Below are positions 20,999 through 27,115 of a stretch of 64,000 nucleotides of DNA, in pieces; within the stretch, counting starts at the first letter, position 1, and every line of letters begins with the position of its first letter. The notes below the pieces were generated by a model. It saw nothing but the letters and a program-made list of their open reading frames with translations. It ran no database searches and had not been told where the DNA came from. The stretch comes from Deltaproteobacteria bacterium (GTDB lineage Bacteria; Myxococcota_A; UBA9042; DTJE01), in NCBI GenBank assembly GCA_029555025.1, contig JAKPTZ010000038.1, positions 62,001 to 126,000 on the forward strand, read 5' to 3'. The translations under genes and the position numbers were made by a program.

Positions 20999-21916
20999 AT
21001 GGCTGGCGGATGGAAAGTGGATGTGGCCTTGCTTGCGGATCGCGTCAGGCGGGCCGTGCTTGAACATACCCTGGACAACGATGGCGGCTACATGAGCCAG
21101 GCGTGCTCGTCCGCCGAGTTGCTTGCCACTCTTTACGGCCGGTTCATGAATATCGGCATGCCCGACAGGCCGATCGAACCACGTCCGTGGCTCGGCACGC
21201 CCCGACACGGCAATACGGAGTATCGAACCGGCGCCGACTTCAATGGCGGCGTTCACGACGCCCGTGACCGCTTCATCCTTTCCCCGACGCATTACTCGCT
21301 TGTTCTTTATGCGCTTCTGGTCGAGACGGGCCGGATGTCGCCGCAGGGGATGAAGCAGTTCAACCGGGATGGTTCTTCGGTCGAGATGATCGGCGCCGAG
21401 CATTCCCCGGGCATGGAAGTCATGACCGGTTCCCTTGGCCAGGGGCTGGCGCAGGCGGCCGGCATGGCACTTGGACGGAAGTTGAAGGGCGCGTCCGGCC
21501 GCGTGGTTGTCATGATGTCCGATGGCGAGTTCCAGATCGGGATGACCTGGGAGTCGATCCAGTTCATGGCACACCACCACCTGGACAACATGGTCGTGTT
21601 CGTGGATGTCAACGGTCAGCAGTGCGATGGAGCGGTGGATTCAGTTATGCGGATCGATCCGATCGATGTCCGGATACGATCCTTCGGGGCCAGGGCGGCC
21701 GTGGTTGACGGACATGACCCGGCCGCGATCATGAAGGCCGGCTCGCGGGCGCCCGACGGTCGGCCTCTTTTCGTGCTTGCCATGACGGATCCGTGTCGCG
21801 GCCTTGACCTGATGCGTAAGAACGCCCCGAAACTGCATTACCTGCGTTTCAGGACGCCGCAGGAAAAGGCCGGCTACAAGGCTGTGCTGGATGCATGGCC
21901 GAAGAGGGGGTCCTGA
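20999..21916 (+). CDS. Transketolase, N-terminal (TPP-binding) subunit
   Basis: The protein has 305 residues. The ATG at 20999 follows GGAAGGTGAAC. It contains the N-terminal half of transketolase: GSLGQGLAQAAG and the TPP-binding SDGEFQIGMTWES..VDVNGQQ segment (the usual GDG is SDG here), plus HSPGMEVM. Such split enzymes pair with a separate C-terminal subunit, encoded next with the stop and start codons overlapping (TGATG). Transketolases transfer two-carbon ketol units between sugar phosphates. The RuBisCO-like protein that follows suggests a dedicated sugar route rather than the central pentose phosphate enzyme. Substrates are unknown. Confidence 0.88.
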   Translation: MAGGWKVDVALLADRVRRAVLEHTLDNDGGYMSQACSSAELLATLYGRFMNIGMPDRPIEPRPWLGTPRHGNTEYRTGADFNGGVHDARDRFILSPTHYSLVLYALLVETGRMSPQGMKQFNRDGSSVEMIGAEHSPGMEVMTGSLGQGLAQAAGMALGRKLKGASGRVVVMMSDGEFQIGMTWESIQFMAHHHLDNMVVFVDVNGQQCDGAVDSVMRIDPIDVRIRSFGARAAVVDGHDPAAIMKAGSRAPDGRPLFVLAMTDPCRGLDLMRKNAPKLHYLRFRTPQEKAGYKAVLDAWPKRGS

Positions 21917-22923
21917 TGGAAATCGTCAGTCGTCCGCATGGGCGCAACCTTGTCAAATGGGCGGCCGACAAGCCCGATGTCCTGGTGCTTTCCGCGGATC
22001 TTACCGGAAGCTGCGAGGCCGACGGCTTCCGCGACGCATATCCGCGGCGGTTCATCAGTTGCGGCATCGCCGAACAGAACATGCTTTCCGTTGCCGGCGG
22101 GTTGTGCCGCGAGGGGTTCATCCCCCTGGTACACACCTTTGCGGTTTTCATCTGCCGGCGTGCATTCGATCAGGTTGCGATGTCGGTCGCCTATCCGAAC
22201 CTGCCGGTGAAGATGTTCGGGTTCCTTCCCGGAATCACGACCCCGGGGGGCGCGACTCACCAGGCCATCGACGATGTGGCGCTGATGCGTTCCCTTCCGA
22301 ACATGACGGTTCTGGAAACGGGGGACGCGACCGAGGTCGAGTCGGTTCTTGACCTGGCATATTCGATTGACGGCCCGGTGTATGTCAGGATGCTGCGCGG
22401 TGACGTGCCGCGCCTTTTCCCGACCGACGAGCCGATCAGGGCCGACCACCCACGCATCCTGTCGCTTGGCGATGAGGTGACCGTATTTTCGTCCGGCATC
22501 TGCACCGAGGAAGTCCTGCGTGCCTCGGCAGTCCTGAAGGCAAGGGGCGTGTCCATCACCCACGTACACATATCGACTTTGAAGCCGTTTGCTTCTGGCC
22601 TGATCGACCAGGCCATCCGTGCTGGCTCCAGGGGGATTGTCACGGTCGAAAACCATCTGGTTGACGGCGGGCTGGGGACGGCCGTGGCTTCGCGGTGCGC
22701 GTCAACCGGGGTCGGAAGGCCCCTTGTCCGCCTTGGGCTTCAAGATACGTGGTCCCACGGCGCGGGAAGGGCGGCTTTGATGCGTGAACACGGTTTCGAC
22801 GCCATGGCACTGGTCAACGCCGTTCAAGACCTGATTGGCGCGAATCTTTCGATTTCATTGGCTGACCTTGGCGCCGTCAGGGTCGAGCCGGTTCATTCGG
22901 TGGCGAAGGCGGAGGCGTTGTAA
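21916..22923 (+). CDS. Transketolase, C-terminal (pyrimidine-binding) subunit
   Basis: The protein has 335 residues from the ATG at 21916, which overlaps the stop of the N-terminal subunit by one base and has GAGGGGG upstream; an earlier in-frame ATG at 21895 gives MAEEGVL and is less likely. It contains the pyrimidine-binding domain (RFISCGIAEQNMLSVAGG, with the conserved Glu of AEQNM) and the C-terminal transketolase domain (GIVTVENHLVDGGLGTAVA). Together with the preceding gene it would form a heterotetrameric transketolase. The stop is two bases before the next gene, so translation is probably coupled. Confidence 0.88.
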   Translation: MEIVSRPHGRNLVKWAADKPDVLVLSADLTGSCEADGFRDAYPRRFISCGIAEQNMLSVAGGLCREGFIPLVHTFAVFICRRAFDQVAMSVAYPNLPVKMFGFLPGITTPGGATHQAIDDVALMRSLPNMTVLETGDATEVESVLDLAYSIDGPVYVRMLRGDVPRLFPTDEPIRADHPRILSLGDEVTVFSSGICTEEVLRASAVLKARGVSITHVHISTLKPFASGLIDQAIRAGSRGIVTVENHLVDGGLGTAVASRCASTGVGRPLVRLGLQDTWSHGAGRAALMREHGFDAMALVNAVQDLIGANLSISLADLGAVRVEPVHSVAKAEAL

Positions 22924-22925
22924 CA

Positions 22926-24107
22926 ATGGGCAGATTTCTGGTCAGGTACTCCCTGCCTGCCACCGACCGTGGGGATGCCGAGGCCCAGGCCTTCGCCCTG
23001 GCCGTCGAGCAGACGATCGAGTTTCCTTACGATCTTGTCACCGACACTTACGTCAAAGGCGAAATTACGGGTCGCGTCGAGTCGGTCGAACTTTACCAGG
23101 CTGTTACCGGCGACCTGTCGGATATCCCGGGCTACCGTCTGCCAGTGGGGATGCGCAGGTACCTTATCGCCGTTTCATACGATGAAGCGACCGCCGGAAC
23201 CGAGTTTTCCCAGTTCATGAACGTCGTCTTCGGCAATTCGAGCATGAAACCCGGAGTCCGCGTCGAGTCGATCAATCCAACCGCGGTCCAGGCCGCCATA
23301 TTTCGTGGTCCGGGATTCGGCATCGAGGGAATCAGGCAGGCTGTCGGAGTCTTTTCCAGGCCGCTTCTGTGTTCCGCAATCAAGCCGATGGGACTTGACG
23401 TGGATACCCTGGCCGACATGGCCTATCGATTCGCTCTTGGGGGAATCGATTTCATCAAGGACGATCACGGCCTTGCCGACCAGCGCTTTTCGCCTTTCGT
23501 GGAAAGGGTTTCCAGATGCATGGAGGCGGTTGACAGGGCCAACCGCGAAACCGGTCGCCGATGTCTTTATATCCCCAACGTGACGGCTGACGGTCCCGCA
23601 ACCCTTGAGCGGGCCATATTCGCGCGTCGGGCCGGCGCCGGCGCGGTCATCGTTTCCGGCGGCCTGACCGGCCTGTCGATGCTCAGGTCGGTGGCGACCA
23701 GTGCGGAAGTCGGACTTCCGGTCTTTTTCCACCCGGCGTTTTCCGGTTCCTATGTTGTCGGGCCATCCCCCGCCTTCACGGAACGAGCCTTTTTCGGCCA
23801 GGTCCTTCGGCTTGCATGCGCCGACGCCGTCATATTTCCGAGTTTCGGCGGGCGCTTTTCCTTCTCGAGGAAGCAGTGCGTCGGGATCCTGTCTGGATGC
23901 AGGATGCCGATGTCGGGCCTGAAGCCGATGTTTCCGGCCCCGGGCGGCGGGTTGAACTTTTCCAACATCTCGGATTCGATGGGATTTTACGGGAATGACG
24001 TCATATTCCTGATTGGTGGTGGCCTGTTCCGCCACAGTCGGGACATCACCCTTTCGGTGCGGGATCTCATGGCGCTGGTGGAGTCGGGGGCAAGCCCGAA
24101 GCCCTGA
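22926..24107 (+). CDS. RuBisCO-like protein (form IV)
   Basis: The protein has 393 residues with the large-subunit RuBisCO fold. Loop 1 reads IKPMGLD, matching IKPKLGL but apparently lacking the second catalytic lysine. The metal-binding segment is GGIDFIKDDHG: it keeps the carbamylated Lys and an Asp but has His where bona fide RuBisCO has Glu. The loop-6 region is replaced by FPSFGGRFSFSRK, and PGGGLNF and GGGLFRH stand at the phosphate-binding sites. These changes are typical of form IV proteins that act as enolases, isomerases or decarboxylases on sugar-phosphate analogues, not CO2 fixers. It directly follows the split transketolase. Some apiose pathways pair similar enzymes, but the reaction here is not known. 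Confidence 0.88.
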   Translation: MGRFLVRYSLPATDRGDAEAQAFALAVEQTIEFPYDLVTDTYVKGEITGRVESVELYQAVTGDLSDIPGYRLPVGMRRYLIAVSYDEATAGTEFSQFMNVVFGNSSMKPGVRVESINPTAVQAAIFRGPGFGIEGIRQAVGVFSRPLLCSAIKPMGLDVDTLADMAYRFALGGIDFIKDDHGLADQRFSPFVERVSRCMEAVDRANRETGRRCLYIPNVTADGPATLERAIFARRAGAGAVIVSGGLTGLSMLRSVATSAEVGLPVFFHPAFSGSYVVGPSPAFTERAFFGQVLRLACADAVIFPSFGGRFSFSRKQCVGILSGCRMPMSGLKPMFPAPGGGLNFSNISDSMGFYGNDVIFLIGGGLFRHSRDITLSVRDLMALVESGASPKP

Positions 24108-25927: not shown

Positions 25928-27058
25928 TCAGGCTCCGGAAGGGTTGCATCTGGACATCGCCAGCCGTGCCCGCTCGTCCTCGTAGAAGCGCCTGATGAAC
26001 TCACGGTTGCCTTCCGTCCACAATTCACCGGCAACCCTGTCGGCGGCCCGCATTATGGCCCTTTCCATCCGGCACAGCTCCGGAGGCGGTGTCGATGTGA
26101 TGCGCCCGGTCATGTTGAACTTGATGCAGCTTCCCCAGAAAGAGCAGCGGTGCGCATCGGCACACCCGGCACAGCAATCTGGCGTCGAATGGTGACAGGC
26201 AAGGAATTCCCTTTGCAAAAGCGGGTCGATCCCGGAAAAGACGTCACCGATGAACGGTCCCGATCCGTCATCAGGCCCGACCATCCTGTCGCACGGGTAT
26301 ATGCGCCCGGAAGGTCCGACGGTCCATTCAGGCCCGCCGCATCCGCACCGCGGCAGGCTGACCTGTGGATGGATTATGTTTCGCGCGATCTTTGAATCGA
26401 TCAGGGGCACGGAAACCGGATTTCCGGCCCTGTACAGGTCGGCCCATGCGTCCGCCAGGCCCTGAATCCCCCGGGCAAAGCGCCTGAGCGCGTTTTCATC
26501 CCAGCAGGCCCCGTAATCGATGGCCGGATGGTGCCGAAGAACCCCGAGCGATGCGGAAAAACGAAGCGCGGCGCCGGCATGCCGGATATTGTCCGGCCCG
26601 GAAACCGATATCACGGATATGTCCGGCTTCAAGGTCAACGCGTGTTTAAGGTTGGCAACGACAATGGAGTGGGATCCCCGTCCGGACGTAAAGACCCTGT
26701 GGGCGTCGTGCACATGTTCCGGGCCGTCCAGGCTGACTGCCAGCCTGAACCTGTTCTTCAGGATGAAATCCAGCCGGGGGCCGTCCAGGAGGGTACCGTT
26801 CGTCGTCATTATCAGGCGCATCCTCCGTCGTCCGGCCGAGGCCAGCTTCCGTGCATGCGCAACGCCATCTGAAAGAAGATCCGGGCTCAGCAGGGGTTCC
26901 CCGCCGAAGAAGCCGATGTTGACGATATCGACTGGTTGAGCGAAAGCCATTTGAAGCGCGCGATCCATCACCTCTGTGGACATAGGGTTGACCGAATGCG
27001 AATGGTTGTAACAATACGTGCACCGAAGGTTGCATGCGTGGTTAAGAAAAAGTTCCAT
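25928..27058 (-). CDS. Radical SAM protein with C-terminal Cys-rich domain
   Basis: The protein has 376 residues from the ATG at 27058; an ATG at 27094 is also possible and neither has a strong binding site. The radical SAM motif is C9-x3-C13-x2-C16 (CNLRCTYC), with GFFGGEPLL downstream. The C-terminal third has CGCGG, IYPCDR, PDCCAGC and CSFWGSC, a SPASM-like arrangement able to hold auxiliary [4Fe-4S] clusters. The closest known relatives are sulfatase- and peptide-maturating enzymes. There is no sulfatase and no obvious small precursor peptide next to it, so it is an orphan maturase candidate. The upstream gene is murI, 57 bases away. Confidence 0.8.
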   Translation of the reverse strand: MELFLNHACNLRCTYCYNHSHSVNPMSTEVMDRALQMAFAQPVDIVNIGFFGGEPLLSPDLLSDGVAHARKLASAGRRRMRLIMTTNGTLLDGPRLDFILKNRFRLAVSLDGPEHVHDAHRVFTSGRGSHSIVVANLKHALTLKPDISVISVSGPDNIRHAGAALRFSASLGVLRHHPAIDYGACWDENALRRFARGIQGLADAWADLYRAGNPVSVPLIDSKIARNIIHPQVSLPRCGCGGPEWTVGPSGRIYPCDRMVGPDDGSGPFIGDVFSGIDPLLQREFLACHHSTPDCCAGCADAHRCSFWGSCIKFNMTGRITSTPPPELCRMERAIMRAADRVAGELWTEGNREFIRRFYEDERARLAMSRCNPSGA

Positions 27059-27115
27059 CGCGCGGTTCCGCCCGGATCTGGATGACGGGATCATGCAGGA
27101 AACGCGGTGTCCGGT

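Follow-up and report, generated by a model that had tools for sequence, protein, structure and literature searches.

A split transketolase and a RuBisCO-like protein in a probable and apparently undescribed form of methionine salvage

Which pathway is served by a split transketolase (TK) encoded next to a RuBisCO-like protein (RLP) was the question raised by a three-gene unit in a 64,000-nucleotide stretch of a deltaproteobacterial contig (JAKPTZ010000038.1, positions 62,001 to 126,000; hereafter the window). All three genes lie on the + strand. The first (20999..21916) encodes the ThDP-binding N subunit (TK-N; Pfam Transketolase_N, PF00456, 84.9 bits), whose nearest solved chain is 6yak, a split-transketolase N component; its ATG start is preceded by GGAAGGTGA. 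The second (21916..22923) encodes the C subunit with the pyrimidine and C-terminal domains (TK-C; Transket_pyr, PF02779, 99.5 bits; Transketolase_C, PF02780, 59.5 bits). The stop codon of TK-N overlaps the start codon of TK-C in a TGATG at 21914-21918; a longer TK-C frame opens at 21895, and alignment with relatives such as those at loci L034, L036 and L040 agreed on the start within the overlap. After a 2-base gap follows the RLP gene (22926..24107; RuBisCO_large, 100.8 bits), which phmmer, fold and tree analyses place as IV-DeepYkr-like. Both transketolase halves and the RuBisCO fold were confirmed by Pfam and PDB searches, and the overlap and gap described in the initial annotation were found in place. 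The unit is flanked on the left by a C69 peptidase gene in the opposite orientation and on the right by a gene for a DUF4442/hotdog-like protein, which starts about 140 bases beyond the RLP. The RLP is single-copy in its genome.

The module most likely recycles methylthioribose, the sulphur-containing leftover of S-adenosylmethionine use. The preferred reading, to which a probability of roughly 0.7 was given, is an oxygen-independent salvage of the methylthioribose part of 5'-methylthioadenosine (MTA). No description of an RLP-transketolase module or of a methylthioxylulose transketolase was found in the open-licence literature, and within that scope the module seems to be a form of methionine salvage not described before.

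The top phmmer match of the window RLP was the Rhodopseudomonas palustris protein 3qfw (7.5e-66), which was also the best fold match (TM 0.92, by target) of its structure model (pLDDT 92.3). In the RLP tree, 102 rows including 3qfw were separated from an outgroup of MtnW and OiaX-type RLPs (SH-aLRT 92). Because 3qfw sits on a distinct deep branch inside this clade, DeepYkr-like is the safe wording for the window protein. The DeepYkr RLP of R. palustris, one of two RLPs in that organism, converts 5-methylthioribulose-1-P (MTRu-1-P) to 1-methylthioxylulose-5-P (PMC5893883); since 2QYG is rlp2 (Photo type), 3QFW should by elimination be RLP1, the DeepYkr type. The DeepYkr RLP of Rhodospirillum rubrum is a proven MTRu-1-P 1,3-isomerase (PMC6302742), and from these characterised relatives the same activity is predicted for the window RLP. 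The KDDH that replaces KDDE (23457..23468, + strand) had been singled out in the initial annotation; it is real, common to the window RLP and 3QFW, and invariant in a 26-member alignment (A2), so it is no peculiarity of the window gene. The outgroup RLPs (MtnW and OiaX-like) carry KDDE. Identity as an MtnW-type enolase was rejected, with scores far under both MtnW cut-offs (196.8 against 409, and 154.4 against 513.6) and with neither MtnD nor MtnC found in the window's own genome (97.6% complete). It had been considered that the RLP might fall in a well-characterised clade unrelated to transketolase; it did fall by a characterised clade, but one that points to methylthio-sugars and not away from the transketolase link.

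The window transketolase is of a kind designated type A; type B is the kind present in several genomes of the window's family. Types A and B formed one clade, apart from ordinary split transketolases, 6yaj, TktA and Dxs (SH-aLRT 99, with long outgroup branches). The ThDP and catalytic residues of the split enzyme are present (DG..N, Glu411, His473), and the aligned type A and B proteins also retain His66, His261 and Arg520 of Escherichia coli TktA. The substrate residues of ordinary transketolase (EC 2.2.1.1) are all replaced in the same alignment: His26 by Tyr, His100 by Ile or Ala, His461 by Phe, Val or Met, and Asp469 by Gly or Leu. In the window TK-N the Tyr at the position of His26 (yeast His30) lies in the motif GGYMSQACS (21083..21109, + strand), and the scored N subunits of type A show the pattern GGY[LMV]SQ[AT]CS; in TK-C the motif PGGATHQ (22243..22263, + strand) has lost Asp469 and kept His473. 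His100 (yeast His103) contacts the C1 hydroxyl of the donor and Asp469 contacts substrate hydroxyls, so that these losses fit a donor without a C1 hydroxyl. An ordinary split transketolase is also kept in the same genome. A role as a general Dxs replacement was rejected, since the Asp kept by Dxs (GADGQTHQ) is gone; Clostridium ljungdahlii and rhizobia, moreover, presumably possess Dxs.

A scan of named genomes gave at least 80 loci, the counts of which represent a sample. Adjacent TKN-TKC-RLP genes were found in at least ten bacterial phyla, the occurrences being in Bacillota, Chloroflexota, Nitrospirota, Planctomycetota, Spirochaetota, Goldiibacteriota, Calditrichota, Elusimicrobiota, Pseudomonadota, FCPU426 and the window's own class. 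Recurrence in dozens of unrelated genomes places the unit far from chance. On this and on the co-occurrence in genomes and on plasmids, the idea of the transketolase as a chance neighbour of the RLP was rejected; the earlier proposal of a single pathway module was judged right. The order mtnK-mtnA-TKN-TKC-RLP was seen on rhizobial and Devosiaceae plasmids, beside a sugar ABC transporter and a bifunctional aldolase/dehydrogenase, and in operons of Clostridium, Anaerosolibacter and Pseudovibrio. In C. ljungdahlii and C. drakei a SAM riboswitch precedes a transporter-mtnK-mtnA-TKN-TKC-RLP operon. The Ponticoccus cluster runs PNP, MTA/5'-deoxyadenosine-type deaminase, mtnA, BisC-family S/N-oxide reductase, TKN, TKC, RLP, and the sulfoxide reductase in it suggests a thioether substrate. 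The kinase, isomerase and transporter missing beside the window module, for want of which the pathway had been called incomplete, adjoin it in relatives as mtnK, mtnA and sugar ABC transporter genes; MtnP and MtnA are encoded elsewhere in the window's genome. Counting against the preferred reading, mtnA lies within 9 kb at only 28 of 78 TK-RLP loci, and none is near the window copy. A riboswitch search detected none in the window or at seven other loci, and a search for phage copies of the module found none.

Locus sampling was centred on RLP loci. Among the 105 sampled, a transketolase was nearby in 78, a cupin in 5, both in none and neither in 22 (several of these at contig ends); when the loci lacking transketolase were checked for a divergent cupin or other partner, unrelated genes only were seen. 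Four of the five cupins are single Cupin_2 proteins related to the cupin that neighbours the RLP of Terrarubrum, an RLP grouping with 3QFW, and their gene position suggests a methylsulfurylase-like function; the fifth case (L083) is weak, at 39% identity and on the opposite strand. On the RLP tree, parts of which have poor resolution, the cupin rows were scattered among transketolase rows, and placing the four cupin rows that lie outside the 3QFW branch together in one clade was rejected (AU p 8e-10). Judged from this tree, transketolase and cupin have evidently replaced each other more than once, and such repeated swapping suggests that both consume the same RLP product. No cupin methylsulfurylase adjoins the window RLP, the split transketolase being in that place, and the latter probably stands in for the cupin that serves the MTA-isoprenoid shunt. 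Co-occurrence of the three genes elsewhere, proposed earlier as a check, was found in genomes and plasmids alike. The special transketolase is present in 20 of 23 related genomes with the RLP and in 0 of 30 without it (Fisher 9e-12, kinship ignored), and in three of the genomes (G005, G011 and G012) the two are encoded on different contigs. Plasmid records with a type A transketolase carried the RLP in 22 of 24 cases.

The two exceptions are plasmids of Marinovum (L161, 5698-10005) and Paracoccus (L162, 5653-10005), where the type A transketolase has no RLP beside it and is accompanied by a BisC-family S/N-oxide reductase, an FGGY kinase, a Zn dehydrogenase and a class II aldolase. From these plasmids it would seem, against the preferred reading, that the transketolase substrate may be reached by another route. 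Related RLPs with neither transketolase nor cupin adjoining were seen at four Nitrospirota loci (L089, L098, L101 and L104) and in Shinella zoogloeoides (L163). At three further loci (L030, 11935-16554; L100; L105) an FGGY pentulose-type kinase lies by the RLP and replaces mtnK/mtnA; loci with RLP and FGGY kinase occur in Vibrio nigripulchritudo with the transketolase and in Chloroflexota without it.

The window's genome encodes MtnP (TIGR01694, 289 bits, over cut-off) and MtnA (TIGR00512, 414 bits), both away from the module. A phylogenetic profile placed mtnA in 53 of 53 related genomes, so its presence here discriminates nothing. With both enzymes present MTRu-1-P can be made, and the RLP-transketolase pair is then its most plausible outlet. 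Against this, two class II aldolases in the same genome, both under every curated cut-off shown (MtnB included), could run a DHAP shunt instead. A fusion of O-acetylhomoserine sulfhydrylase (MetY) and homoserine O-acetyltransferase (MetX) is encoded in this genome as one 831-aa protein (L137, 1363-3858).

In the proposed salvage, MTA would be converted to MTR-1-P by MtnP here and via MtnK in many relatives, and MtnA would give MTRu-1-P. By a 1,3-proton shift that moves the carbonyl, as shown for its characterised relatives, the RLP would then form 1-methylthio-D-xylulose-5-P (MTXu-5-P). Attack of ThDP at C2 of this compound would break the C2-C3 bond, release glyceraldehyde-3-P and leave a methylthio-C2 unit on ThDP. 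Of the earlier suggestions for an unusual sugar phosphate, that of a ketol transfer preceded by isomerisation agrees with the best evidence. Since many operons hold only the RLP and transketolase after mtnA, the products of the module should be ordinary metabolites. What then becomes of the C2 unit is more speculative and is argued from chemical analogy: the likeliest course would be loss of methanethiol to give acetyl-ThDP, and from it acetate or acetyl-P, with plain release or transfer as possible alternatives; the methanethiol might be reused via O-acetylhomoserine sulfhydrylase, which with its elimination is the least certain step. Phosphoketolase, which loses water, and sulfoacetaldehyde acetyltransferase (Xsc), which loses sulfite, serve as the analogues: in both of these ThDP enzymes a bound C2 unit sheds its beta leaving group and becomes acetyl-ThDP. 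They belong to ThDP subfamilies different from that of the window transketolase, and elimination of methanethiolate is here a proposal. Only tentatively, and with more doubt than belief, the split transketolase may be put forward as a new ThDP lyase, a 1-methylthioxylulose-5-phosphate ketolase that would convert MTXu-5-P to glyceraldehyde-3-P, methanethiol and an acetyl unit, and so complete an oxygen-free methionine salvage with carbon recovery in many anaerobes and aerobes by two enzymes after MtnA.

Much of the same evidence would fit a 5-deoxyribose phosphate. For salvage of 5-deoxyribose (from 5'-deoxyadenosine) the same enzymes would act on 5-deoxyribulose-1-P, the RLP would make 1-deoxyxylulose-5-P (DXP) directly, and the transketolase would cleave surplus DXP or act separately. 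The MtnK-like kinase DrdK takes both sugars, DrdK, DrdI and DrdA process methylthioribose too (PMC6079011), and a PRK08324-type aldolase/SDR adjoins the rhizobial clusters. The window's genome, moreover, encodes a divergent DXP reductoisomerase (Dxr; genome G000, contig C45, locus L171, 1225-2379) and has no Dxs over cut-off at 97.6% completeness, and DXP could there come from an RLP that acts on 5-deoxyribulose-1-P; 181 species have been recorded in which Dxs alone is missing, mostly unexplained (PMC10663253). This reading is nevertheless thought unlikely: the SAM riboswitch and BisC-family reductase neighbours indicate a sulphur compound, and alternation of the transketolase with a cupin that removes the methylthio group makes little sense for a sulphur-free substrate.

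Two further readings would change the role of the transketolase or the substrate altogether. The transketolase might leave the RLP product unsplit and build a larger methylthio- or deoxy-ketose, with an ordinary donor giving up a C2 unit to an aldose, for instance methylthioribose, much as 7-deoxysedoheptulose arises from 5-deoxyribose through a promiscuous transketolase in Synechococcus (PMC8102628). The RLP would then not be needed, loss of His100 and Asp469 speaks against an ordinary ketose donor, and the module has no conserved neighbour gene for an exporter or another enzyme, all of which make this quite improbable. AptAB, the split transketolase for apulose-4-P in apiose routes, and the sulfo-transketolase SqwGH are two-gene transketolases, as is the window enzyme. 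RLPs are used in apionate routes (PMC6302742), and the initial annotation had linked the unit to D-apiose degradation. Catabolism of D-apiose or D-apionate through a branched sugar phosphate is nonetheless hardly credible, as the window RLP, at 89.7 bits, fell far short of the OiaX cut-off (700), OiaX-like RLPs have KDDE and lie beside a four-carbon acid sugar kinase with no transketolase alongside, and TK-RLP genes adjoin mtnK and mtnA instead.

Set beside known systems, the methylthioribose salvage preferred here is closest in its first steps and RLP type to the MTA-isoprenoid shunt of R. rubrum and R. palustris (MtnP, MtnA, DeepYkr RLP and a cupin MTXu-5-P methylsulfurylase); a split transketolase takes the place of the cupin, and glyceraldehyde-3-P and a C2 unit are expected where the shunt gives DXP. 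The DHAP shunt or 5-deoxyribose disposal (MtnP or DrdK, MtnA or DrdI, Ald2 or DrdA) likewise takes a methylthio- or deoxyribulose-1-P from a kinase or phosphorylase and an isomerase, but its class II aldolase acts on the 1-phosphate, whereas here the RLP would first shift the carbonyl and ThDP chemistry would cut the chain. Canonical methionine salvage shares MtnA and an RLP, and differs in its MtnW RuBisCO-like enolase and the dioxygenase MtnD. The Carboxydothermus split transketolase (6yaj/6yak) has two genes with the same domain split as the window enzyme, which differs from that type by its separate clade and its four lost residues.

For DeepYkr-type RLPs a single role in vivo is known (PMC5893883), and the function of RLPs found in Spirochaetes, Planctomycetes and Moorella has been called unknown (PMC7325909). 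Should the preferred reading be true, transketolase-linked RLPs would be assigned to MTA/MTR salvage with a new partner enzyme named, an oxygen-independent branch would be added to methionine salvage, and rhizobia and acetogens, C. ljungdahlii among them, would be predicted to release methanethiol.

Elsewhere in the window, the gene at 25928-27094 (- strand) encodes a homologue of PapB-like radical SAM/SPASM peptide maturases (NF047865, 177.8 bits, under cut-off) and adjoins a gene for a DUF4015 glycosyl-hydrolase-like protein.
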